From an uncultured Gammaproteobacteria bacterium (GTDB lineage: Bacteria > Pseudomonadota > Gammaproteobacteria > PS1 > Pseudothioglobaceae): DNA of 32,404 bases. Shown here in pieces: positions 478 to 27,543 of this stretch. The first letter of the stretch is position 1. Each line of letters opens with the position of its first letter. The stretch lies in contig CABXNH010000010.1 of NCBI GenBank assembly GCA_902513495.1, positions 1 to 32,404 on the forward strand, given 5' to 3'. Made by a program: the position numbers and the translations under genes. The notes under the pieces were generated by a model, which saw only the letters and a program-made list of their open reading frames with translations, did not search any database and was not told the DNA's origin.

Positions 478-783
478 ATGAAAACACTGAAAGGCCTCCA
501 GCTTGGTGATGGACTGGACGAGGCGACTGAGATGGGCTCGCTGATCAACGCAGAGCGTCTCAATCAGATTGACGGCATCGTGCAAGAGGCCTTGCAACAC
601 GGTGCAAAGCTGGAAACCGGCAGGCAACGGGCCGCTGAATTCAGCGCCGGCCATTTTTCTGAACCGACCGTCCTGACGAAGGTCAACGATGACATGGCGA
701 TCGCATCGATTGAAAATGCAATTAACTACCTCAACCAAACGATTGATCTTTCTTTGATCGTGAACAGGGATGCCCTGAAATGA
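478..783 (+). pseudogene. Aldehyde dehydrogenase fragment (about 100 residues)
   Basis: The 101-residue product matches only an inner segment of the NAD(P)-dependent aldehyde dehydrogenase superfamily, whose full proteins are about 480-500 residues. Recognisable pieces are LGDGLDEATEMGSLIN, a following helix with QIDGIVQEAL, and EPTVLTKVNDDMAIA, which in complete enzymes precedes the EEIFGP motif. That motif, the catalytic Cys and the cofactor-binding half are absent. After DMAIA the sequence departs from the family, so a second deletion or decay is likely there. A strong Shine-Dalgarno sequence (AGGAGG at 467-472, five bases before the ATG) precedes it, so a short product may still be made. 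Its end overlaps the start of the next gene as ATGA. It could be a remnant of a methylmalonate/malonate-semialdehyde dehydrogenase (mmsA/iolA), but the fragment is too short to say. Confidence 0.75.
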
Positions 784-1928
784 CTGAAAAACCCAAACTC
801 TCCATCGGCCTGATTGGCTCGGGCTTCATGGGCAGAGCCCATGTCTTCGGTTTTGCAACGGCCCAGAAAGCTTTTGACCTGCCGATACAAATCGACCTGC
901 ACACCATAGCCGATATCACCGACGAGGCGGCTGCGAAGGCCGCGAGAGATTTCGGCTTCCGCCACGCAACCTCGGACTGGCGCGAGATGCTGGAAAACCC
1001 GGAAATTGAGATGATCGATATTACCGCGCCAAATGCGCTCCACAAGGAAATGGCCCTTAAATCGATTGCCGCAGGAAAGCATGTCTATTGCGAAAAACCA
1101 CTGGCCCCGCTTGCCTCTGATGCACACGAAATGGCTGAGGCCGCCGAGTCTGCGGGGGTCAAAACCCAGGTTGGCTTCAACTATCTTTGTAATCCGATGG
1201 TCGGACTCGCAAGAGAAATGATCGAAGCTGGTGAGTTGGGCGAAATTCGCGGTTATCGGGGGCTTCATGCCGAAGATTACATGACCGACGCACTCAGCCC
1301 GGCCACCTTCCGCCATGATCCGGCAGGTGGCGGTGCACTCGCCGATCTGGGCAGCCATGCACTGGCGACAGCGGAGTTCTTGCTCGGACCCATCACTGAG
1401 GTGATGGGTGATTGCGTAACAGTCATCGCCCAACGCCCCGACGGTAAGGGGGGTCGACAGAAAATCGAAGTGGATGACATCGGCCGTGCATTCCTGCGGT
1501 TCGGTAACGGAGTAACCGGATCGATCGAGGGTAACTGGATCTCTACAGGCCACAAGATGCAGCATGATTTCGAGGTCTACGGATCCAAAGGTGCACTCTA
1601 TTTCAACCAGGAACACTTTAACGAGCTGCAGTTCTACTCAACCGAAGATGCTTCTGGCCGATGCGGTTTCCGCCGGATCGAGGCCGCTCCCGAACACCCC
1701 CCCTATGGCAATTTCTGCGTTGCGCCAGGGCATCAGATCGGGTTTAACGATCTCAAGGCGATCGAAGTGGCGGGATTCGTGAGCGCCATTGCCGGAAGTG
1801 GTCGGGAGATGTTTTCGTTCCGCAAGGGTTTGCGTATTCAGCACCTTGTGGAATCCATACAGAAATCGGCGTGTCAGAAGCAATGGGTCAGTACTGAGTC
1901 TTACCTACAGACAGGGCTTATGAAATGA
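780..1928 (+). CDS. Gfo/Idh/MocA-family NAD(P)-dependent oxidoreductase (first copy)
   Basis: This intact 382-residue protein has the family layout: an N-terminal Rossmann fold with GLIGSGFMGRAH at residues 9-20, the conserved CEKPLA motif near residue 101, and a C-terminal alpha/beta substrate domain with HDPAGGGALADLGSHAL. Family members oxidise ring hydroxyls of inositols and sugars (IolG, IolX, IolW and relatives). It belongs to the same close subfamily as the second copy at 6660 (shared spacing, PPYG/PPYD and APGHQIGF/NAGHSLGY motifs near the C-terminus) but its DNA is far more GC-rich, so the two were probably acquired separately. Start chosen at 780 because it overlaps the upstream stop as ATGA. 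The likely substrate is an inositol isomer or inosose, inferred from the neighbours; the exact substrate cannot be read from sequence. Confidence 0.88.
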   Translation: MTEKPKLSIGLIGSGFMGRAHVFGFATAQKAFDLPIQIDLHTIADITDEAAAKAARDFGFRHATSDWREMLENPEIEMIDITAPNALHKEMALKSIAAGKHVYCEKPLAPLASDAHEMAEAAESAGVKTQVGFNYLCNPMVGLAREMIEAGELGEIRGYRGLHAEDYMTDALSPATFRHDPAGGGALADLGSHALATAEFLLGPITEVMGDCVTVIAQRPDGKGGRQKIEVDDIGRAFLRFGNGVTGSIEGNWISTGHKMQHDFEVYGSKGALYFNQEHFNELQFYSTEDASGRCGFRRIEAAPEHPPYGNFCVAPGHQIGFNDLKAIEVAGFVSAIAGSGREMFSFRKGLRIQHLVESIQKSACQKQWVSTESYLQTGLMK

Positions 1929-2035: not shown

Positions 2036-2260
2036 ATGACCACAAAAAACCCGCCAGATGACAACGAAAGCCTGATCCAGTTGATCCACGACCGTTACGA
2101 TGAGATGAGTCGGACCCATCAGCAGATTGCGCTTTACCTGACGCAGAACCCCAACGATGTCGCGGTCCACTCAGTCAATTCGATTAGGTCTTTAGGGGCA
2201 ACAATGAGCCTTGTTCAGGCTATATGTATATCCATTGGATACCATCAACAAGGAAATTAA
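2036..2260 (+). pseudogene. Truncated RpiR-family transcriptional regulator
   Basis: The first 50 or so residues match the start of RpiR-type regulators: LIQLIHDRYDEMSRTHQQIA and YLTQNPNDVAVHSVNSI form the first helices of the helix-turn-helix domain. After about residue 51 (near base 2187) the match and the high GC both stop, and the frame runs through unrelated AT-rich bases to a stop just before iolB. The recognition helix and the whole SIS sugar-phosphate domain (about 180-200 residues) are missing, so it cannot work as a normal repressor. In several Alphaproteobacteria an RpiR-type IolR precedes the inositol operon, so this is probably the remains of such a local regulator. If so, the operon downstream has lost its linked control gene. 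Confidence 0.75.
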
Positions 2261-2262
2261 AT

Positions 2263-3060
2263 ATGTCTCTTTTATCTCGTCCCAAATTAAGTTCAGATGG
2301 TTGTTATCAAAACATTACACCAAAATCAGCCAATTGGAAATATGTCGGATTTCAAGCACATGAACTGGCACCTCAACAAACTTTGAATTGGATTGATCCA
2401 GATAAAGAATCATGCTTGGTAATCTTATCTGGCAAGGCTGATATTAGAGTAGATAAGCAGACTTTTCATGGTCTTGGCGATAGAATGAGTGTATTTGAAG
2501 ATAAAAAACCGCATGCAGTATATGCACCCAATAACAGTCAAGTATCTATCAAAGCGATAACCAAACTCGAGCTGGCAATAGCAACTGCCCCTGGCTTTGG
2601 AAATTATCCTGCCAGACACATTAAGCCTGAAGAAATGACCAATGAGGTTCGAGGAGAAGGCAGCAACACAAGATCTATTTGCAACATATTGCCGGAACAA
2701 GACAAAGCTGATAGTTTGCTGGTTGTCGAAGTTAAAACTCCGGCTGGAAACTGGTCAAGTTATCCACCACACAAGCATGATTCAGATAACATTCCGGTTG
2801 AGACATATTTAGAAGAAACATATTATCATCGAATTAATCCACCTCAAGGGTTTGCCTTTCAGAGAGTCTATACCGATGATCTATCCATTGACGAGACGAT
2901 GGCAGTGGAAGACAAATGTGTTGTTCTTGTTCCAAAAGGATACCATCCGGTTGGCGTTCCTCATGGGTATGATTCATATTATTTGAATGTAATGGCAGGC
3001 CCTAAAAGACAATGGATTTTTAAAAACCACCCTGACCATGAATGGATGTTAGATAAATAA
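2263..3060 (+). CDS. iolB: 5-deoxy-glucuronate isomerase IolB (first copy)
   Basis: IolB turns 5-deoxy-D-glucuronate into 5-dehydro-2-deoxy-D-gluconate in myo-inositol breakdown; it is a cytosolic bicupin related to KduI. The 265-residue product fits the family length of about 270. The C-terminal cupin keeps the expected metal ligands: YPPHKHDSDN, then LEETYYHR, then KGYHPVGVPHGYD. The N-terminal cupin ends with VYAPNN. Start placed at 2263, with AAGGAA at 2250-2255 just ahead; an upstream in-frame ATG at 2224 has no ribosome site. The stop overlaps the next start as TAATG, so translation is coupled to iolC. A second, diverged IolB lies at 8780 in the same operon. Confidence 0.92.
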   Translation: MSLLSRPKLSSDGCYQNITPKSANWKYVGFQAHELAPQQTLNWIDPDKESCLVILSGKADIRVDKQTFHGLGDRMSVFEDKKPHAVYAPNNSQVSIKAITKLELAIATAPGFGNYPARHIKPEEMTNEVRGEGSNTRSICNILPEQDKADSLLVVEVKTPAGNWSSYPPHKHDSDNIPVETYLEETYYHRINPPQGFAFQRVYTDDLSIDETMAVEDKCVVLVPKGYHPVGVPHGYDSYYLNVMAGPKRQWIFKNHPDHEWMLDK

Positions 3061-4976
3061 TGAAATCAATTGATATTATTTGTTTAGGAAGAGCGGCTGT
3101 AGATTTTTATGGTCAACAGATTGGATCCACATTGGAAAATATGGGGAGTTTTGCCAAATATCTGGGAGGCTCTTCTGCAAATATTGCATATGGCTGCTCT
3201 AAGCTTGGCCTAAGTTCAGCAATGCTTACTAGGGTTGGAAACGAGCATATGGGTCGTTTTGTTCGTAATGAACTTGAAAGTGTTGGTGTAGATACATCTC
3301 ATGTAATTACTGATAGTGAACGATTAACTGGATTAGTTGTTTTAGGGATTCAAGATAAAGAAACCTTTCCTCTCATCTTTTATCGTAAAGACTGTGCTGA
3401 TATGGCAATCAGTGAAAAGGATTTTACAAAAGAGTTTATTGCGAGCAGTAAAGCATTACTCATTACAGGAACACATTTTTCCTCCGATAATACTTATCAG
3501 GCAAGTATGAAAGCAATAGAGTATGCAAAGTCCTCTGATACTCAGGTCATTGTTGACATTGATTATCGGCCAGTGCTTTGGGGGTTAACAGAGTTAGGTG
3601 ATGGAGAATCTCGATTTGTTGCAAGTGATGATGTAAGTCAGCATCTGCAAACAATTCTTCCACATTGTGATGTTGTTGTTGGGACTGAAGAAGAGATTCA
3701 CATTGCTGGAGGTAGTGAAGACACTATCACCGCATTGAGCAAGATACGACAGCTTAGTAATTCAATTATTGTTTTAAAGTTAGGTCCTTTAGGGTGCACA
3801 GTCATTACTAGTGATATTCCTAATAGCACAGATGATTTCAATGTAATCAAAGGTAATCAGGTTGACATTCTGAATGTATTGGGTGCTGGCGATGCTTTTA
3901 TGTCAGGTTTTTTAAGAGGTTATCTTAGGGGTGAGAGTCTTGAAAAAAGTGCCAACTATGCTAACGCATCTGGTGCATTAGTCGTATCTCGTCATGGCTG
4001 TGCTCCAGCAATCCCTGGTGAGCATGAGTTGTTATATTACTTAGAAAATGCAGTTGACATTCCCGACCCAAGTACAGATTTAACGCTAAACCATCTTCAT
4101 AGAGTCAGCTTCAGAAACAAAGAAGAGCCAGAAATTTTTGGTTTTGCTTTTGATCACCGAAAACAACTTAGTGATCTTGCAGTCAAGTATGGCGAAGATT
4201 TAAGTCAAATCATAAAACTTAAAAAACTATTTATTAGATCAATAATAAATACTATTGATAAATTTAAAATTCCTCAAAAAAGTATCGGAGTTTTAATTGA
4301 CGACACTTATGGTGAGGATGCACTCAATTCTATTGCTGAAAAATCATGGTGGATTGGAAGACCTGTTGAGCTTCCAAGTTCAAGACCCCTAAAGTTTGAA
4401 GGCGACCAGTCTATTGGTTCGAAGATACAGTCATGGCCACTATCACACGTTGTTAAGTGTTTATTTTTCTATCATCCAAATGATTCAGTCGAACTGAAAC
4501 TTAAGCAAGAGCAAAAAATAAAAGAGCTATATTTTGCATGTATTCAAAGCGGACACCAATTATTGCTAGAGGTAATTCCGCCTTCAAAATATGAAGAGGA
4601 TGAAGCGACAATACCAACAATCTTGAAAAGATTTTATGAAATAGAAATTAAGCCAGACTGGTGGAAGCTTCCAGCACTTAAAGAAAAGTCGTGGCAGCAA
4701 GTAAGTGATGTAATAAATACTCATGATTCGCATTGCCAGGGTGTATTATTATTGGGTCTTTCTGCTCCAATCGATATTGTTAGAGAGTCTTTTGCTGTAG
4801 CAGCAAAGTATCCTATCTGTAAAGGTTTTACAGTGGGCAGAACTATTTTTTATGATCCTGCAAAACAGTGGATGCAGCATAATATAAGTGATCAAGAGTT
4901 GGTTGATTCTGTAACTACTACTTACATTGAATTGATTCAATCTTGGAAAAAATATAGAGAGGGAATTCAAAAATGA
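3060..4976 (+). CDS. iolC: 5-dehydro-2-deoxygluconokinase fused to DUF2090 domain (IolC-DUF2090)
   Basis: The 638-residue protein has two parts. Residues 1 to about 335 are a PfkB/ribokinase-fold sugar kinase with GGSSANIAYG near residue 38 and the catalytic GAGDAF near residue 275; it phosphorylates 5-dehydro-2-deoxygluconate. Residues from about 345 to the end are a DUF2090 domain, beginning around GFAFDHRKQL and ending with GFTVGRTIFYDPAKQWM. Such fusions are common in Proteobacteria, and the DUF2090 part, which resembles TIM-barrel aldolases, has been proposed to supply the aldolase step where iolJ is missing. Here a separate class II aldolase is also present at 9619. The gene overlaps iolB upstream (TAATG) and the iolD stub downstream (ATGA). 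Confidence 0.93.
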   Translation: MKSIDIICLGRAAVDFYGQQIGSTLENMGSFAKYLGGSSANIAYGCSKLGLSSAMLTRVGNEHMGRFVRNELESVGVDTSHVITDSERLTGLVVLGIQDKETFPLIFYRKDCADMAISEKDFTKEFIASSKALLITGTHFSSDNTYQASMKAIEYAKSSDTQVIVDIDYRPVLWGLTELGDGESRFVASDDVSQHLQTILPHCDVVVGTEEEIHIAGGSEDTITALSKIRQLSNSIIVLKLGPLGCTVITSDIPNSTDDFNVIKGNQVDILNVLGAGDAFMSGFLRGYLRGESLEKSANYANASGALVVSRHGCAPAIPGEHELLYYLENAVDIPDPSTDLTLNHLHRVSFRNKEEPEIFGFAFDHRKQLSDLAVKYGEDLSQIIKLKKLFIRSIINTIDKFKIPQKSIGVLIDDTYGEDALNSIAEKSWWIGRPVELPSSRPLKFEGDQSIGSKIQSWPLSHVVKCLFFYHPNDSVELKLKQEQKIKELYFACIQSGHQLLLEVIPPSKYEEDEATIPTILKRFYEIEIKPDWWKLPALKEKSWQQVSDVINTHDSHCQGVLLLGLSAPIDIVRESFAVAAKYPICKGFTVGRTIFYDPAKQWMQHNISDQELVDSVTTTYIELIQSWKKYREGIQK

Positions 4977-5050
4977 AAACTATTAAACTAACAATGACAC
5001 AGGCTCGTATAAGAAATCTAAAACAAAGCAACCTTACTAGTCATGACTAG
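4973..5050 (+). pseudogene. iolD: iolD remnant: first 25 codons only
   Basis: Directly overlapping the iolC stop (ATGA), an ORF starts MKTIKLTMTQARIRNLKQ and stops after 25 residues at TAG 5048-5050. The first 18 or so residues match the characteristic beginning of IolD, the thiamine-diphosphate enzyme 3D-(3,5/4)-trihydroxycyclohexane-1,2-dione hydrolase, which normally reads M-K-T-I/V-R-L-T-M-A-Q-A-L and runs to about 610-640 residues. The rest of IolD is absent from the window, so a deletion has taken almost the whole gene. What remains is a leader-sized ORF lying between iolC and the next ORF, whose ATG (5043) overlaps its end by eight bases. The match is short, but its position exactly after iolC, where iolD usually lies, makes the call fairly safe. 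Confidence 0.75.
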
Positions 5051-5729
5051 AGAAACAGTTAAATCTAGACAACAAGTTTATTTCAGTGAATCTGATATAG
5101 ATTATGATGACTTAACTGAAATATGTTCTCAAAAAACACTTCAAGAGGATTATTCTCTTGCAGATTCAGTTTCAAATAATGTTGTCATTTATGATGCGAA
5201 TCACTTGAAGTCATTTATTGTTAATGAATTAAAAGAAAGAATATTAAAAACAGAGTTGCATCAGGTTTTAGAAAATGGACCAGGGGTTTTTGTTGTTCGA
5301 AATCTTTATGAAGGCGAAGTAATAGATCAGAGCAATACTATTTTTTTTAATCCTGCTGTATTTCATGCTGCTGGCGCAAACACTACTAATGACTTTCATA
5401 GGATTGGTAATCTTTTTCAAATTTCATCGCCCTTTGGCAAGCCTATTGAGAGCATAGATTATATTAAAATTATCAATCATATTTACCCATCCTTGCTAGA
5501 GCATTTAAATAAAAAAAACCTTTCAGAAAAGCTTATTGATAATGTTCTTATATGTGCAACTGATGGATACGCCTTTCCCACAAACTTAGATCACGATAAC
5601 AACTCTGATTCTAAGCTACAAGGAATGAGCATGTATGAACTTACAAAACAATCACTTCTAGACTCTCTGAGTCTAGAGAAATTTAGCTTAAAGCTCTCTG
5701 AGCTCCAGCATATGAGGCTTGCTAGTTAA
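5043..5729 (+). pseudogene. Internally deleted phytanoyl-CoA dioxygenase (PhyH)-like protein
   Basis: The 228-residue ORF reads as the two ends of a PhyH-type Fe(II)/2-oxoglutarate dioxygenase joined together. The N-terminal part (to about residue 97) includes ENGPGVFVVRNLYEGEVID. It runs straight into FFNPAVFHAAGANTT ... HRIGNLFQISSPFGKP, which in the full proteins (about 380 residues as I recall them) is the distal His/Arg region near the C-terminus, followed by AFPTNLDHD. The central barrel carrying the HxD iron ligands, about 150 residues, is missing. The join lies near base 5335. The product is therefore unlikely to be an active dioxygenase. It has no clear ribosome site and may be translated by coupling with the iolD stub. 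The alignment is from memory of the family; a genuinely short variant cannot be ruled out. Confidence 0.55.
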
Positions 5730-5757: not shown

Positions 5758-6663
5758 ATGAGTGTGAAAATTGGTGTTAGTCCGATATCGTGGACTAATG
5801 ATGATATGCCCGAGTTGGGTCGTGATACGACTGTGGAACATTGCCTAAAAGAAGGTAGTCAGGCTGGGTATAGAGGCTTTGAGTTGGGGGGTAAATGGCC
5901 AAGGGAAGTATCCGTACTTGAGCCTTTATTTAGCAAATATGATATGGATGTTGTTTCAAGTTGGTTTTGTGGTGGTTTGCTTAAAGACACTATCGAAGGT
6001 GAAATAAAAAGAATTACGCCTCATATGCAACTTCTGAAGGATTTGGGTACTGATGTAATAGTTTATTGTGAAATGGACTCATGTGTTCATGGAGATATTA
6101 GCTCGCCTCTTTCAAAACGACCAATGCTTGATGAAGATCAATGGAAGGAATGGACTGAAAAGCTTGACCAGTTAGCTAAATATACTTTGTCGCATGGAAT
6201 GAAGCTTGCTTATCATCATCATATGGGAACAGTCGTTCAAATTGAAGAAGAGGTGGATAAATTAATGGCCATGACCAGTAGTGACCTTGGCTTAGTATTT
6301 GATACAGGTCATTTTATTTATGCAGGTGCAGACCCTCTAAGTGTTTATAAAAAACATAGTGACAGAGTTCTTCATATTCATTGTAAAGATGTCAGAGCAG
6401 AAATATTGAATGATGTTTTAGAGTCAGACTCAAGTTTTTTAAATGCCGTCTTGAGTGGAGTATATACAGTTCCTGGAGATGGCGTTTTTGACTTTCCAGG
6501 CTTATTTAAAATGGTGAGTGAGAATGGTTTTAAAGGATGGATTGTTGTTGAAGCAGAACAAGATCCAGCCAAAGCGCATCCTTTAACGTACGTCACAATG
6601 GGCTATAACAATATTAAGAGTTATTGTGAAAAATTTGGAATTGAAATAGAGGAAAAAAGATGA
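5758..6663 (+). CDS. iolE: Inosose dehydratase IolE
   Basis: IolE dehydrates 2-keto-myo-inositol to trihydroxycyclohexane-1,2-dione, the substrate of IolD. The 301-residue protein is a TIM-barrel of the xylose-isomerase-like/AP-endonuclease-2 type. It has the IolE opening GVSPISWTNDDMPELG, then GYRGFELGGKWPRE, the metal-site regions LVFDTGHFIYAGADP and HIHCKDV, and VPGDGVFDFPGLF near the end. A good Shine-Dalgarno sequence (GGAGAAGG) precedes the ATG. The stop overlaps the next dehydrogenase start as ATGA. The reading frame is intact and the key acidic residues are visible, so the gene appears functional even though its immediate upstream neighbours are decayed. Confidence 0.93.
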   Translation: MSVKIGVSPISWTNDDMPELGRDTTVEHCLKEGSQAGYRGFELGGKWPREVSVLEPLFSKYDMDVVSSWFCGGLLKDTIEGEIKRITPHMQLLKDLGTDVIVYCEMDSCVHGDISSPLSKRPMLDEDQWKEWTEKLDQLAKYTLSHGMKLAYHHHMGTVVQIEEEVDKLMAMTSSDLGLVFDTGHFIYAGADPLSVYKKHSDRVLHIHCKDVRAEILNDVLESDSSFLNAVLSGVYTVPGDGVFDFPGLFKMVSENGFKGWIVVEAEQDPAKAHPLTYVTMGYNNIKSYCEKFGIEIEEKR

Positions 6664-7787
6664 AAACAATTGGAGTAGGAGTTATAGGCACAGCTTTTAT
6701 GGGGAAGGCACATTCAATTGCATATGCCGCTGCTGGAAGTGTTTTTGGTGATGGATTAAAGCCCAAGCTTGAAATGATTTGTGACTACAATCCTGAAAGG
6801 GCTGAGGTCAAGAAAAAGGAAATGGGATTTTCAAGATGCACAAGTTCCTGGGAGGAGTTAGTAAATGACCCTAAAGTTGAACTTATTTCTGTTTGTGTTC
6901 CGAATTCATTACATAAAGAGATTTCAGTGGCCGCATTAAAACTTGGAAAGCATGTTTGGTGTGAAAAGCCAATGTCAACCAATTTGTCTGACTCTGAAGC
7001 GATGTTTGCAGCTGCTCAAAAGGCCTCAAGCTCTCAAACAATATTGGGCTATAACTACACCCAAAACCCAGCAGTTCAAAGCGCAAAAAAACTTATTGAT
7101 GAAGGCGTAATTGGACGTGTAATTGGATTTTATGGAAGCTATGATGTAGATAATGAAGCCGATCCAGAGAGACCTCATTCTTGGCGAATGAGCCGGGAAG
7201 CTTCTGGAACTGGATCGAACGCTGATGTCATGTGCCATTTGGTAAGTATGGCTCACTACATGACTGGTAGCGAAATTACTCGATTAGTGGGCGACTATGA
7301 CACAGTGCATAGAGAGCGATCAGACCCCAAAAATCCAGACCAAACATTGATTGTTGATAACGATGATGTTTGCACAGCGATGGCACATTTTAAAAGTGGA
7401 ATTAAGGGAACTCTAAGAGTGAGTCGAGTTGCTTGGGGAAGAAAGTGCGGATTGCGCTGGGAGATACATGGGTCACAAGGGATGATCTGTCATGATCAGG
7501 AGCGGTTAAATGAAATTAAACTCTATACTCGAAGTGAAGATCCTAGACAGGAGGGCTTCAAGACCATATTGAGTGGTCCTGCTCAGCCGCCGTATGATGC
7601 CTTTTTACCGAATGCAGGACATAGTCTCGGGTATATCGATGTCAAGGTGTGTGAACTCAAACAACTTCTAGATGCAATCGAAACAGGCAAGGCAGTATGG
7701 CCGAATTTTTCTGATGGTGTGAAGATTGAGAAAGTAATGGATGCTATCGATAGGTCTGCACTCTCTGGTCAATGGCTTGATGTCTAG
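6660..7787 (+). CDS. Gfo/Idh/MocA-family inositol-type dehydrogenase (second copy)
   Basis: This intact 375-residue NAD(P)-dependent oxidoreductase has GVIGTAFMGKAHSIAY at its Rossmann start and CEKPMS near residue 101. The substrate-domain region HSWRMSREASGTGSNADVM ends in a helix that carries the usual catalytic His (MCHLV). Its place between iolE and a sugar kinase indicates that it supplies the inosose substrate by oxidising an inositol isomer, or a related cyclitol or sugar acid. It is a close-subfamily relative of the protein at 780 but with AT-rich codons like its neighbours. Start overlaps iolE as ATGA; its end overlaps the following kinase start by eight bases. Substrate (myo-, scyllo- or chiro-inositol) is not decidable from sequence. 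Confidence 0.9.
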   Translation: MKTIGVGVIGTAFMGKAHSIAYAAAGSVFGDGLKPKLEMICDYNPERAEVKKKEMGFSRCTSSWEELVNDPKVELISVCVPNSLHKEISVAALKLGKHVWCEKPMSTNLSDSEAMFAAAQKASSSQTILGYNYTQNPAVQSAKKLIDEGVIGRVIGFYGSYDVDNEADPERPHSWRMSREASGTGSNADVMCHLVSMAHYMTGSEITRLVGDYDTVHRERSDPKNPDQTLIVDNDDVCTAMAHFKSGIKGTLRVSRVAWGRKCGLRWEIHGSQGMICHDQERLNEIKLYTRSEDPRQEGFKTILSGPAQPPYDAFLPNAGHSLGYIDVKVCELKQLLDAIETGKAVWPNFSDGVKIEKVMDAIDRSALSGQWLDV

Positions 7788-8799
7788 TAATCAAATTCAA
7801 AATCTAAGTTATGACGGGACGCGGGACTGGAGCGCTCTTGTTGTTGGTAGAGCAGGTCTTGACCTATATCCTCAGCCATCAGGCGTGAAAACGATGAGTG
7901 CTGAAACGTTTGCGAGTGATGTAGGAGGGTCTGGTGCTAATATAGCGATTGCTATGAAACGATCTGGAGGCAGTATTTCGCTTGTTTCTGCCCTCTCTGA
8001 AGACCCAGTTGGATCCTTTGTGAAGAATCGTCTTTTAGAAGAAGGAATTGACTTAGGTTTGATGCAAACTACAAATGGAGATGAGAGAACAAGTCTCGCA
8101 ATTGCTGAAGAGCGACCTCTCGACTGTGAGGTTGTAATTTATCGAAATAACCCAGCAGATCTTCAAGTTAATTGCAACGATAAAATCGAGTTGGCAATTT
8201 CTAAAAGTAGTAATTTAGTGGTAACTGGAACTAGTTTGATTGAGCCTAAGTCTCGAGATCAGGTGCTAGCAATGATGTTACATGCTAAGAATCATGACTG
8301 TAAAGTTTGGTTGGATTTGGACTATAGGGCTTGGAATTGGCCTGATAAAAAAAGCACACGATCAGCATATCAACAAGCTACAAAGTTAGCACATGTTATC
8401 GTTGGCAATGAAGAGGAATTTAAGATTCTTCATGATGATTTAGCATCCCAAGCCAAGGAATGTTCATTAAATAATCAACTAATGATAGTGAAGCGAGGAG
8501 AAAATGGCTGCACTTTATTTTCAGGTGAATTACGAATAGATACGGGTATTTATAAACTAGAGGTTATGAAGCCTTATGGTTCTGGAGATGCTTTTCTTGG
8601 AAATTTAATAATGGACTATATGTCTTCTGGAGACTGGAAAAAAGCAATCGAGGTTGGAAGTGCTGCGGCTGCCATTGTGGTGTCAAAGCAAGGCTGCGCA
8701 AGTGCAATGCCAACTCATCAAGAAATAAAGTCGTTACAAGATAGTATGTCGATTGAACCAAAACACAGCGGAGTTAAAAATGCATATCCCTCAACATGA
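7780..8799 (+). CDS. PfkB-family carbohydrate kinase, second IolC-like enzyme without DUF2090
   Basis: The 339-residue protein is a ribokinase-fold kinase with VVGRAGLDLYPQPSG near the start, GGSGANIAIAMKRSGG near residue 50 and a catalytic loop YGSGDAFLGNL near residue 265. It shares order and motifs with the kinase half of IolC at 3060 (including LDLDYRAWNWP against DIDYRPVLWG), so the likely substrate is a 5-dehydro-2-deoxygluconate-type sugar acid. The loop reads GSGD where most family members have GAGD; the catalytic Asp is kept. Start placed at ATG 7780, which overlaps the upstream stop; an earlier in-frame ATG at 7741 lies deep in the previous gene. It overlaps the IolB-like gene downstream by 20 bases. 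Confidence 0.85.
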   Translation: MSSNQIQNLSYDGTRDWSALVVGRAGLDLYPQPSGVKTMSAETFASDVGGSGANIAIAMKRSGGSISLVSALSEDPVGSFVKNRLLEEGIDLGLMQTTNGDERTSLAIAEERPLDCEVVIYRNNPADLQVNCNDKIELAISKSSNLVVTGTSLIEPKSRDQVLAMMLHAKNHDCKVWLDLDYRAWNWPDKKSTRSAYQQATKLAHVIVGNEEEFKILHDDLASQAKECSLNNQLMIVKRGENGCTLFSGELRIDTGIYKLEVMKPYGSGDAFLGNLIMDYMSSGDWKKAIEVGSAAAAIVVSKQGCASAMPTHQEIKSLQDSMSIEPKHSGVKNAYPST

Positions 8800-9619
8800 C
8801 AATAATAATCAGCCTATTGTAGATTGTAATAATGAGGTAGTACCCTTATGCTACTTTAACATCGTAAAGCTTTCGGCTGGAGAGGAGTTTAGCTACCAAC
8901 TAGATGAATACGAAACATGTATCGTTCCTGCAACTGGAACCATAGATGTTGAGGTTGATGGCCAAAGCTTTAAAGGCGTTGGCAAGCGAAACTATATTTG
9001 GGAGAGTGACCCTGAAGGGGTTTATGTCCCTGTGAACTCAAAAGCTAGATTGATTTGCCAAGATGGAAAGACTGAGGTATTTATCTCTGGCGCCAAACAC
9101 AATGAAACGTATGAAGCATTTGTTATTAGGCAAAAAGATATTGATAAAGTTCAATATGGCTCTGATGATACTAAGACTCATCGAAAAATTAAGCATATCT
9201 TAGGCAAGGATCCAGCTGGAAAAGTTGGTAAGTTATTAGTAAGCGAATTATTTACCGTTGGAGAAGGAGGCTGGTCAGGATTTCCGCCTCATAAGCATGA
9301 AACAGATATGCTTCCAGAGGAGAGTAAACACAATGAAGTTTACAATTTCAGATTCAATCCTGCTAATGGCTTTGGTGCTCAATTTTTAACTCCAGATGGA
9401 GAGGATTTTGGCCCTGTATATCATGTACGTGACGGCTCCACATTTATCTTTGATAAGGGTTATCATCCTTGTGTCGCAGCACCAGGCTTTGAAATGTATT
9501 ACTTTACTATATTGGCTGGGGAGACTCAAAGGCCACTGCATATGAATTATCAAAAAGACTATGCATATCAGCTAGAAACTATTCCTGGCATGCAAGATAT
9601 GCTTAATAAATTTAAATAA
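8780..9619 (+). CDS. IolB-like bicupin isomerase (second copy)
   Basis: This is a 279-residue bicupin of the KduI/IolB family, clearly diverged from IolB at 2263. It keeps the C-terminal cupin metal-site pattern: FPPHKHETDMLPE, then HNEVYNFRFNPANG, then DKGYHPCVAAPGFEMYY. The first cupin has CIVPATGTIDVEVDGQ and VYVPVNS. Start placed at 8780, with GCGGAG seven to twelve bases before it; an in-frame ATG at 8753 is less likely because it lies further inside the kinase gene. The gene ends TAATG with the aldolase, so kinase, isomerase and aldolase are translationally coupled. It probably isomerises 5-deoxyglucuronate or a stereoisomer of it; which one is inference. Confidence 0.87.
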   Translation: MHIPQHDNNNQPIVDCNNEVVPLCYFNIVKLSAGEEFSYQLDEYETCIVPATGTIDVEVDGQSFKGVGKRNYIWESDPEGVYVPVNSKARLICQDGKTEVFISGAKHNETYEAFVIRQKDIDKVQYGSDDTKTHRKIKHILGKDPAGKVGKLLVSELFTVGEGGWSGFPPHKHETDMLPEESKHNEVYNFRFNPANGFGAQFLTPDGEDFGPVYHVRDGSTFIFDKGYHPCVAAPGFEMYYFTILAGETQRPLHMNYQKDYAYQLETIPGMQDMLNKFK

Positions 9620-10449
9620 TGATTTCAAACCTTAAAGATATTCTTCTGCCAGCAAGTAAACAAGGTTATGCGGTCGCATGCTTTAATGTTTTTGGCTTTG
9701 AGGACTCAAAGGCAGTTTTAGAAGCTGCTGAGGCTAGAAATGCGTCTGTTATTCTTTCAATCAATCTTGATATGCGTGAGTTTATGAGTATGGAACAAAT
9801 TATTGGTATGCTAAGACCGATGGCAGAGAGCTCTAAAGCGCCGGTTTGCCTGCATCTTGATCACACATACAAGGTTGATGTGGTGAAACAGGCAATAGAT
9901 ACTGGATTTACTTCCGTCATGTTTGATGGTTCTCAATTACCAATTTCTGAAAATATTGCTCACATCCGAGATGTTGTATCTTATGCACATCCTAAAGGAG
10001 TTTCGGTTGAGGCTGAAGTAGGCTCTGTACCCTATGCAACAGGAAGGGATCATATCAAGTCAGCACTAACTGAAGTTTCTGATGCTTTAGCTATGGAGAA
10101 ACAGGGAGGTCCTGATGCACTTGCAATTTCAATTGGTAATGTTCATCGTCTAGAGAATGGATCTGTAGAAATTAATTTAGAGCGCTTTAAAGAGCTTGAA
10201 GAGGTATTAACTATTCCATTAGTTATTCATGGCGCAAGTGGCTTAGAAGATAAGGATATCAAAATGTTATCGAAGCGACATGTCACTAAATTTAATGTTG
10301 GAACGGTTTTGAGAAAGCGCTTTGGAAGTTCTTTAAGAGCCACACTTGAGTCTAACCCGGAGCTATTTGACAGAATAACAATCATGCAAAAAGTGATTCC
10401 GGATCTAAAAGAGACAGCAACAAAGATTATTGATCTTCTTGGCCAGTAA
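9619..10449 (+). CDS. iolJ: Class II aldolase, IolJ-like (6-phospho-5-dehydro-2-deoxygluconate aldolase)
   Basis: The 276-residue protein belongs to the zinc-dependent class II fructose-bisphosphate aldolase family (FbaA/GatY/IolJ). Visible motifs are YAVACFNVFGFED near residue 14, LHLDHT with a catalytic Asp and a Zn-binding His, SVMFDGSQLP, VEAEVGSV, SIGNVHR with a Zn-binding His, VIHGASGL with the last Zn-binding His, and KFNVGT for phosphate binding. In the inositol pathway this enzyme splits the phosphorylated acid into dihydroxyacetone phosphate and malonate semialdehyde. Its coupling to a kinase and an IolB-like isomerase supports IolJ over a glycolytic or tagatose aldolase. It is the last gene of the operon. 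A weak hairpin covers its stop codon. Confidence 0.85.
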   Translation: MISNLKDILLPASKQGYAVACFNVFGFEDSKAVLEAAEARNASVILSINLDMREFMSMEQIIGMLRPMAESSKAPVCLHLDHTYKVDVVKQAIDTGFTSVMFDGSQLPISENIAHIRDVVSYAHPKGVSVEAEVGSVPYATGRDHIKSALTEVSDALAMEKQGGPDALAISIGNVHRLENGSVEINLERFKELEEVLTIPLVIHGASGLEDKDIKMLSKRHVTKFNVGTVLRKRFGSSLRATLESNPELFDRITIMQKVIPDLKETATKIIDLLGQ

Positions 10450-24537: not shown

Positions 24538-25611
24538 ATGATAAGAAACAAACTTATACTCATGGTAATGGCAGCAACGCTTGTTTTTACAGGCTCTAGC
24601 TCAATTGCTGCGGAGGAAAAAGTTATCAAGTGGAAACTGGCGATGACTTGGCCAGCTGGCTTACCGCCTTTCGCATGGACTGTTGAACGTTTTGCTTCAA
24701 ATGTAGAGGAAATGAGTGGTGGTCGAATGACAATTCGTGTTGATGATAAGAATAAACACAAGGCTGCTCTGGGCATACTTGATATGGTCGAAGCTGGTCA
24801 ATACGAGATGGGTCATTCAGCATCTTATTACTGGAAAGGTAAAGACATTAATACTATGCCATTTACAACCATGCCTTTCGGCATGACAACTTCTGAACAA
24901 GATGCTTGGTACTACTATGGTGGTGGTGAAGCACTTGCAAAAGAAGTATTTGACAAACATGGGGTTATTCAATTTCAAGGTGGCAGTACTGGTAATCAGA
25001 TGGGCGGATGGTTTCGTAAAGAAATCAATTCTGTTGATGACCTGAAAGGTCTAAAGATGCGAATTCCTGGGTTTGCTGGAGAAGTTATGGCTGAACTTGG
25101 TGTTGCGGTAACTAACCTGCCTGCGGGTGAGTTATATACTGCGCTAGAACGAGGAACTATTGATGCGCTAGAGTGGGTTGGTCCAGGTATGGATATTAAT
25201 ATGGGCTTTCATAAGGTTGCACCCTATTATTACACTGGCTGGCATGAGCCTGCAACTGACTTGCAGTTCTTAATTAACCAAGACGCATGGAATGAATTAC
25301 CAGCTGACTTACAGGCTATTGTTGAGGTGGCTATTGTTGACTCCAAGGCACGTATGTATTGGGAAAACTACGCCATGAGCGCGGAAGCTTGGTCTAAGAT
25401 GGGAGTAGATTACCCTAACATTAAAGTTAAGTCATTCCCGCCAGAAGTGATTGCTGAGATGAAGGCTGTAAATGCTCGACTCATAGCAGAAACTTCAGCT
25501 AAGGATCCACTGTTCAAAAAAATCATTGATTCTCAAACAGAATTTATGTCAAAGGCTAGAGAGTGGACAAAGATGTCAGATTATTTGTATCTGCAAGACA
25601 ATATCGAATAA
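24538..25611 (+). CDS. dctP: TRAP transporter substrate-binding protein DctP (second system)
   Basis: The 357-residue periplasmic receptor has a Sec signal peptide with a cut near residue 25 (after SSIAA). It shows the TakP-type pattern: KWKLAMTWPAGLPPFAWTV, GHSASYYWKGKD, GGWFRKEINSVDDLKGLKMR followed by IPGFAGEVMAELG with the conserved Arg, and ALERGTIDALEWVGPG. It differs a good deal from the first DctP, so the ligands are probably different. It is divergent from suyAB, in the position where a DHPS/sulfolactate transporter would be expected; in Cupriavidus pinatubonensis a TRAP transporter (HpsKLM) accompanies the same genes. That makes DHPS the best guess for its ligand. A strong terminator follows it. 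Confidence 0.92.
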   Translation: MIRNKLILMVMAATLVFTGSSSIAAEEKVIKWKLAMTWPAGLPPFAWTVERFASNVEEMSGGRMTIRVDDKNKHKAALGILDMVEAGQYEMGHSASYYWKGKDINTMPFTTMPFGMTTSEQDAWYYYGGGEALAKEVFDKHGVIQFQGGSTGNQMGGWFRKEINSVDDLKGLKMRIPGFAGEVMAELGVAVTNLPAGELYTALERGTIDALEWVGPGMDINMGFHKVAPYYYTGWHEPATDLQFLINQDAWNELPADLQAIVEVAIVDSKARMYWENYAMSAEAWSKMGVDYPNIKVKSFPPEVIAEMKAVNARLIAETSAKDPLFKKIIDSQTEFMSKAREWTKMSDYLYLQDNIE

Positions 25612-25633
25612 TTTAAATCTTATGTGTTTTATA

Positions 25634-25662
25634 ATGCCCGCAGTAAAAGCGGGCATTTTTTT
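25634..25662 (+). terminator. Strong rho-independent terminator between dctP and dctQM (second system)
   Basis: ATGCCCGC (25634-25641) pairs perfectly with GCGGGCAT (25649-25656) around a seven-base loop, and seven T residues follow. It lies 22 bases after the dctP stop and 19 bases before dctQ, so permease expression depends on read-through. It has the same place as the terminator in the first TRAP operon, with unrelated sequence. Confidence 0.9.
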
Positions 25663-25681
25663 ATTTTAAAAGGTTTTTTCT

Positions 25682-26197
25682 ATGCTTTGGATTGAATTAT
25701 TTTGCGATAAATGCGCTAAATATATAGGTGTGATTATTTCATTCCTACTTATTTTGATGATGATCAACGTCGCTTTTGATGCACTAAATCGCTACATAAT
25801 GAACTCTAACTCTGTTGCCCTACAGGAGATGGAGTGGCATTTGTTCTCTGTGATTATTTTACTGGGCCTTTCCTATACTCTCAGCGAAGAGGCGCATGTC
25901 CGGGTTGATATTTTATATGCAGGTTTTAGTAAAAAAAAGAAGGCAATTGTCAATATGATTGGCGTTATTCTTTTTGTTCTCCCTCTTAGTTTATTGATTG
26001 CATATGGTTCACTCGGCTTTGTTGAAAAATCATTTGTGTTTATGGAACAGAGTGGTGATCCAGGCGGCCTTCCCTATCGATATATTATTAAAGCATTAAT
26101 ACCAACATCATTTGTTATCTTGATTATTATGTCAATAGGTTATTTTGCTCGCAACTATAACCTTCTAAAGAGGCTTAATTCAGGGTCTGAGTCATGA
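25682..26197 (+). CDS. dctQ: TRAP transporter small permease DctQ (second system)
   Basis: The 171-residue protein has four predicted membrane segments (near YIGVIISFLLILMMINVAF, HLFSVIILLGLSYTLS, IVNMIGVILFVLPLSLLIAY and IPTSFVILIIMSIGYF). The family region LSYTLSEEAHVRVDILYAGF follows the second segment. The start is ten bases after AAAAGG. The stop overlaps the dctM start as ATGA at 26194. It lacks the acidic N-terminal extension seen in the first DctQ. Confidence 0.9.
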   Translation: MLWIELFCDKCAKYIGVIISFLLILMMINVAFDALNRYIMNSNSVALQEMEWHLFSVIILLGLSYTLSEEAHVRVDILYAGFSKKKKAIVNMIGVILFVLPLSLLIAYGSLGFVEKSFVFMEQSGDPGGLPYRYIIKALIPTSFVILIIMSIGYFARNYNLLKRLNSGSES

Positions 26198-27543
26198 TAG
26201 GCTTAATAATGTTTTTTACTGGACTAGCGATGCTGTTTATAGGCTTCCCAGTTGCATTTACTTTTGGCGCCGTTTCGGTATTTTTTGGTATGGCTGCTGG
26301 AATTATCGAGGCCTTTGGTGATGGTGAGTTGTTAGTTGATGGAATAGATAACGGTTTAATGATGTTTGCAATGATGCCTCATCGAATTTGGAGCATTATG
26401 ACCAATACTATATTAATGGCAATCCCTTTATTTATTCTCATGGGCCTAATTCTCCAAAAAACAAAATTAGCTGAACGATTATTAGAATCAATGGGTTTTT
26501 TGTTTGGAAAAATACGAGGCGGACTAGCTATCAGTACGGTACTCGTTGGATCTTTATTGGCAGCCTCAACAGGTGTAGTTGGTGCGAGTGTAGTAGCCAT
26601 GGGAGTCATTTCCTTGCCAGTAATGCTGAAATATAACTATTCAAAAAATTTATCTACTGGAACAATTTGCGCAGCAGGCACTTTAGGCCAAATTATTCCG
26701 CCATCCATTGTTCTTATTATTTTAGGTGATGTATTTAATGTTCCTGTAGGCGATTTATTTAAAGCTGCACTTTTTCCTGGGTTAGTTCTAGTTGCAGCCT
26801 ATGTTGTTTACATTCTAATTATTTGTTATATAAAGCCTGACATAGCGCCTTCAATTAATCTCAAAGCTCAGGAAGGAGAGAGTAAAAAGAGCCAAGTTTG
26901 GTCAGCTTTATTTTCAATTATTCCTCCACTATCCCTCATTATTATTGTTCTTGGCTCTATATTTGCAGGAATTGCAACTCCTACTGAATCATCTGCTATT
27001 GGCTGTGTTGGTGCAGTAATACTTTCACTCTTATACAGAAAGTTTTCCTTTTCAATGTTAATGGAGTCAGCTAAAGAGACGGTCAAAATAACCGCAATGG
27101 TTTTTGGTATTTTGATTGGTGCTACCGCATTTTCTATGGTTTTTACCTATACCGGTGGAGATATGTTGATAGAGGAGTTTATGCTCAGCTTGCCTGGAGA
27201 TAAATGGGGTTTTGTTATCATGGCAATGTTAGCCATCATGGTCTTAGGGTTTTTTATAGACTTTGTAGAGATTTCTTATATTATCGTTCCTATCCTGGTT
27301 CCAATTTCTGAGGTTTTAGGTATTAACCCAATCTGGTTTGCAATTCTTATCGCAATGAATTTACAGACTTCGTTTTTAACTCCGCCTTTTGGGTTTAGCT
27401 TGTTCTATTTAAAAGGAGTTGCACCAAGTAGTATTAAAACGACAGACATTTATAAAGGTGTTGTTCCATTTATCATGATACAAATTCTTGTGCTAGCTTC
27501 AATCGTCTTTTATCCAGAGTGGTATGGAACTTTTGAATACTAA
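26194..27543 (+). CDS. dctM: TRAP transporter large permease DctM (second system)
   Basis: The 449-residue polytopic protein carries DctM motifs: FIGFPVAFTFGAVSVFFGM, AIPLFILMGLILQKTKLAERL, STGVVGASVVAMGVISLPVM, AGTLGQIIPPSIVLIILGD, and GIATPTESSAIGCVGAV. About twelve membrane segments are visible. Together with DctP and DctQ it forms a sodium-coupled importer. It overlaps dctQ, and a hotdog-fold gene starts ten bases after its stop, perhaps on the same transcript. Confidence 0.92.
   Translation: MIGLIMFFTGLAMLFIGFPVAFTFGAVSVFFGMAAGIIEAFGDGELLVDGIDNGLMMFAMMPHRIWSIMTNTILMAIPLFILMGLILQKTKLAERLLESMGFLFGKIRGGLAISTVLVGSLLAASTGVVGASVVAMGVISLPVMLKYNYSKNLSTGTICAAGTLGQIIPPSIVLIILGDVFNVPVGDLFKAALFPGLVLVAAYVVYILIICYIKPDIAPSINLKAQEGESKKSQVWSALFSIIPPLSLIIIVLGSIFAGIATPTESSAIGCVGAVILSLLYRKFSFSMLMESAKETVKITAMVFGILIGATAFSMVFTYTGGDMLIEEFMLSLPGDKWGFVIMAMLAIMVLGFFIDFVEISYIIVPILVPISEVLGINPIWFAILIAMNLQTSFLTPPFGFSLFYLKGVAPSSIKTTDIYKGVVPFIMIQILVLASIVFYPEWYGTFEY

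Follow-up and report, generated by a model that had tools for sequence, protein, structure and literature searches.

The window analysed here is the whole of contig C10 (32,404 nt) of an uncultured gammaproteobacterium, part of a 1.22 Mb assembly of 72 contigs that is 70% complete. It carries an iol operon in which a 25-codon ORF is located between iolC and the next gene, ORFX, a remnant of a PhyH-type dioxygenase gene (Table 1). The encoded peptide, MKTIKLTMTQARIRNLKQSNLTSHD, starts in an ATGA overlap with iolC and its stop codon overlaps the ORFX start by eight bases, both as described in an earlier sequence-only reading of this DNA. Downstream of iolE follows a second set of iol-like genes, and to the left of iolB lie, from the contig edge inward, a fragment of an SDR gene, a fusion ORF of ALDH and hydroxyacid dehydrogenase, an intact Gfo gene and a hybrid rpiR.

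Table 1 Features at the left end of the window (positions in nt of the window)
Feature	Position	Strand	Remarks
ALDH/hydroxyacid dehydrogenase fusion ORF	478..783	+	central part of an aldehyde dehydrogenase, fused in frame to the end of a hydroxyacid dehydrogenase
Gfo/Idh/MocA gene, alphaproteobacterial type	780..1928	+	intact; 77% identity to a gene on a Paracoccus plasmid; occupies the iolG-rpiR place of relatives
Hybrid rpiR ORF, 74 aa	2036..2260	+	~50 alphaproteobacterial-type residues, joint near 2184, then the last ~24 residues of the genus RpiR
iolB	2263..3060	+	intact; first part 95-97% identical to the G017/G018 lineage
iolC	3060..4976	+	intact; kinase fused to an aldolase-like DUF2090 domain
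25-codon stub ORF	4973..5050	+	probable by-product of a frame-shifting deletion
iolD 5′ end kept	4973..5005	+	codons 1-11, MKTIKLTMTQA
Deletion joint D1	5003..5005	+	1,789 bp missing; GCT common to both sides
iolD 3′ end kept (last 35 nt)	5006..5040	+	original stop TAG at 5038-5040; out of frame in the stub
PhyH-type dioxygenase gene remnant (ORFX)	5043..5729	+	228 aa; central 164 codons with HxD gone
Deletion joint D2	5339..5345	+	492 bp missing, in frame; 7-bp TATTTTT common to both sides
iolE	5758..6663	+	intact
Second set: Gfo/Idh/MocA dehydrogenase, IolC-like kinase, IolB-like isomerase, class II aldolase	6660..10449	+	all intact, syntenic with relatives

The place of the stub between iolC and the dioxygenase gene, its first 11 codons and the last codons with their stop are those of IolD, the 3D-(3,5/4)-trihydroxycyclohexane-1,2-dione hydrolase (TIGR04377), whereas the window is 1,789 bp short and frame-shifted. 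At the matching site all 11 relatives from the genus encode an IolD start that reads MKT[IV]RLTM[TSA]QA, with R as residue 5 where the window has K, a difference that we count in favor of a deletion scar. This comparison is based on the 11 relatives; the N-termini of six minus-strand loci from a further scan (L024, L027, L028, L030, L032 and L034) were left out. The IolD-like N-terminus postulated in the sequence-only reading is hence real, although it extends over 11 residues and not over about 18. Codons 12-25 correspond to the final codons of iolD in a shifted frame, the iolD frame at this site being YKKSKTKQPY-stop. Both iolD ends are present, the middle is gone and the frame is broken, as in a deletion pseudogene; the stub matches no family model and nothing of the ThDP enzyme is left. 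Four of the 11 relatives were aligned by nucleotide over both joints, and the gap at D1 measured exactly 1,789 bp against each of them, which likewise speaks for a deletion. A second genome scan returned 11 loci, in each of which an IolD frame of 619-632 aa directly precedes ORFX, and the earlier statement that iolD has been cut to a stub at its ancestral place is borne out.

ORFX resembles the PhyH (PF05721) dioxygenase located beside iolD in this marine, PS1/SUP05-related genus in both protein ends and in its place before iolE, whereas the window copy is devoid of the central codons. In the 11 relatives the gene sits between iolD and iolE with open frames of 393-410 aa. All four nucleotide alignments showed a gap of 492 bp at D2, a further point for the deletion scar. 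The residues H179-R180-D181, invariant in the 11 relatives and containing the HxD that we take to be the metal motif of a PhyH-type 2-oxoglutarate dioxygenase, fall inside the missing span and hence are lacking from the window ORFX. Its Pfam score for PhyH is 14.8 bits, compared with 87.9 for an intact relative. Neither this internal deletion nor the disturbed left flank had appeared in the earlier description.

In a search of 58 related genomes, ORFX was found in the window's own genome and in 11 others, all from one genus. IolD exceeded the curated cut-off of the family model TIGR04377 (715 bits) in 13 of the 58, namely the same 11 genus members and two genomes from other families; in a twelfth genus member, G024, iolD is truncated by the contig end. 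The 29 genus genomes include 12 with iolE, namely the 11 that carry ORFX and iolD together and the window's own, and the co-occurrence of ORFX, iolD and iolE was counted for the deletion scar. The order iolC - iolD - ORFX - iolE is constant in the 11 relatives, with iolB before iolC where the contig extends. Several loci of the second scan apparently come from the same assemblies as these relatives, so the two counts of 11 are not independent samples. In the assembly G009 (L043), iolB, iolC and iolE give fragmented matches, suggestive of frame shifts in that assembly. The D1 joint itself occurs in one of the 29 genus genomes, the window's own, and the lack of a second genome with it counts against the deletion scar. 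Outside these genomes, a single 19-base match to the joint was obtained in viral_contigs, in a sequence that is unrelated and carries neither iolC nor the dioxygenase gene, and was taken as chance.

The search for a full IolD or another ThDP hydrolase that had been proposed on first inspection yielded no full-length IolD over 715 bits in the window's own, 70% complete assembly. The best and only match, on another contig, scored 224.9 bits, within the range of second ThDP enzymes in relatives that also carry IolD. Within the 70% of the genome that is covered, a second IolD or other ThDP enzyme as a substitute was set aside, this one low-scoring match being its sole candidate.

Relatives have the order iolG - rpiR - iolB. 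In the window, iolG and most of rpiR give way to an alphaproteobacterial-like segment (1-2260) that is itself trimmed, and the GC content changes from 43-62% in this flank to 36% at iolB. The iolG gene exceeded its cut-off in 12 of the 29 genus genomes, the window's own not being among them. The segment follows the order ALDH - hydroxyacid dehydrogenase - Gfo - RpiR of an inositol-linked operon on the Paracoccus alcaliphilus plasmid p429813, whereas in the window the first two survive as fused remnants, no aldolase is left and RpiR is a hybrid. Since the complete Paracoccus series (ALDH - aldolase - hydroxyacid dehydrogenase - Gfo - RpiR) has an aldolase gene between the first two, the foreign piece has lost parts as well. 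The rpiR joint connects genes that would be consecutive were the foreign piece located beside the native operon, which we count for the deletion scar. In total, four joints in ~5 kb are clear, D1 and D2 included, and one is probable; the least certain of all is the first joint, near 485 in the ALDH piece, because few residues precede it. Among plasmids, no closer relative of the imported Gfo than the 77% match was found. Across 398 genomes of the phylum the best near-full-length match reached 72% (one match truncated by a contig end, 76%), the best in 297 genomes from a single order was likewise 72%, and no carrier was found in the viral sequences searched.

We further compared selection on the genes of the operon with that in relatives, dropping relatives with <85% coverage or <50% identity gene by gene and excluding an ABC-transporter row (median dN/dS 1.089, median dN 2.620) as a presumed bad alignment. 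Median dN/dS values of the window versus relatives were 0.093 for iolB, 0.078 for iolC and 0.066 for iolE, and in the second set 0.034 for Gfo and 0.140, 0.065 and 0.082 for the remaining genes. This range of 0.03-0.14 is close to the values among relatives, and relaxed selection on the neighboring iol genes was not seen in this comparison, suggesting that the loss of iolD is recent, or apparent only. For the 5′ part of the ORFX remnant the median was 0.304, the highest of 12 taxa and above the 0.195 among relatives, a modest, nominal elevation that was counted for the deletion scar. The 3′ part (0.128, fifth of 12) showed no relaxation and was counted against it.

We consider it most probable (roughly 0.57) that the stub is the scar of an iolD deletion inside a recombination-scarred contig end, and that this scar is real and recent. 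Part of an inositol-linked operon of alphaproteobacterial type would have taken the place of iolG and most of rpiR in the scarred stretch, from ~0.4 to 5.4 kb, and its genes would have been trimmed by several microhomology deletions that left the gene order unchanged. One of these, 1,789 bp long and between two short GCT repeats, would have produced the iolD stub, and another, of 492 bp between TATTTTT repeats, would have inactivated the neighboring dioxygenase. The joints as such are evident from the comparison with relatives, and we infer that illegitimate recombination within the cell produced them, perhaps in connection with the uptake of foreign DNA. They are direct, gene order is preserved and short repeats lie at D1 and D2, all of which favors deletion. 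A tentative but serious alternative is that the left 5.4 kb is a chimera from amplification or assembly and that the organism has a normal iolD. This would account for the location of every joint in the leftmost 5.4 kb of a single contig in a fragmented assembly, which counts against the deletion scar, as does the presence at this same end of foreign DNA together with stretches of 95-100% identity to two relatives, since a chimeric contig could also show both. The iol segment begins with 95-97% identity to G017/G018 (2.2-2.6 kb), rises to as much as 100% to G013 (2.8-3.6 kb) and continues at 79-91% to G013. The normal selection on the neighboring iol genes, the 72 contigs and 70% completeness, and the broken iolB, iolC and iolE frames of the G009 assembly fit a chimera, too. 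However, the D1 and D2 homologies of 3 and 7 bp are too short for a k-mer switch, and the alphaproteobacterial rpiR start continues in frame into the native rpiR end, which is improbable as a chance event if the molecules were unrelated. Furthermore, all joints are direct, whereas chimeras from multiple displacement amplification are mostly inverted, the count reported for one sample being 585,997 direct versus 6,363,739 inverted (PMC6515389). In the stretches compared, damage of this kind is also confined to the contig end. Among the 25 ORFs of G006 that match the window at at least 60% identity, ORFX was the only one with less than 90% of its length aligned, and the other 24 colinear window ORFs contain no internal deletion, which we count for the deletion scar. 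In 100 kb of contig C1 compared with 120 kb of G006, 85 of 85 ORFs of the window's genome aligned over 90%, as did 82 of 83 in the reverse direction (the exception lies at a stretch edge). These tests, on the window and on C1 alike, are blind to wholly deleted genes and to genes of <60% identity. Identity between C1 and G006 was mostly <92% (201 of 210 scored bins). In the window, 2201-3600 contains short stretches of 95-100% identity to two different relatives, whereas the rest is mostly 80-90% identical to the nearest.

Two readings would assign a function to what is left. The operon could now serve an IolD-independent substrate via the imported Gfo, the second kinase, isomerase and aldolase set and IolE, which would fit the full-length frames of the imported Gfo and of every gene in the two sets apart from iolD and the dioxygenase, the native ones being constrained. 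We regard this rewiring as very improbable, because the second set, traced in the 58 related genomes by near homologues of its Gfo and IolB-like genes, is found only alongside iolD, the window's own genome excepted, because the loss seems too recent to judge and because no other ring-opening enzyme for the IolE product is known here. A broader scenario, in which uptake of the alphaproteobacterial operon fragment in a natural marine population triggered the microhomology deletions of iolG, most of rpiR, iolD and the dioxygenase, and the spared, still-selected genes now serve an IolD-free substrate, appears very unlikely as a whole. Scarcely credible is the earlier idea that the stub is kept as a coupling leader whose ribosomes would re-initiate on the next ORF. 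The overlap of 8 nt between the stub stop and the next start and a purine-rich stretch, AGAGAGGG, before the stub start would agree with it, but the stub occurs in one of 29 genus genomes and is thus not conserved across relatives, its frame has been shifted by the deletion, and ORFX, the ORF to be served, has no catalytic core. In each of the 11 relatives the same shifted frame overruns the ORFX start, by 8-53 nt and in one by exactly 8, so the eight-base overlap needs no selection; relatives without any leader already have the iolD stop 2 nt before the ORFX start. The ATGA overlap, as read from the sequences, is an ordinary form of the iolC/iolD junction, present in six of 11 relatives. The two overlaps most probably represent the ancestral iolC/iolD junction and the nearest stop of the shifted frame. 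Such a neat overlap of short ORFs is no evidence for a coupling leader, and the 25-codon ORF looks like debris with no function of its own.

In the operon as assembled, ring opening by IolD is impossible, suggesting that the classical route of myo-inositol breakdown has probably been lost from this genome, and recently. The deletion scar resembles homology-facilitated illegitimate recombination, in which insertion is coupled with deletion, in the foreign piece adjoining host DNA, the kilobase-scale loss and the short joint homology (PMC3240628), whereas the window has several joints in one stretch. That process would be recognized by a foreign insert, a deletion and 3-10 bp of homology at the illegitimate joint; in the window we observed a foreign piece and short homologies and could assign no homologous anchor end. 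As background, mosaic outcomes are reported for B. subtilis transformation (PMC13344027). In the literature searched, we found nothing linking inositol with Thioglobus singularis or with Pseudothioglobus. If the joints are real, they record how a marine bacterium with a small genome freshly lost a pathway, and the breakpoints can still be read next to foreign operon DNA; if they are not, this contig end is unfit for claiming a loss of inositol use. Elsewhere in the window, the TRAP-transporter genes DctP, DctQ and DctM (24538-27543) are missing from the corresponding stretches of four relatives (L044, L046, L048 and L051).
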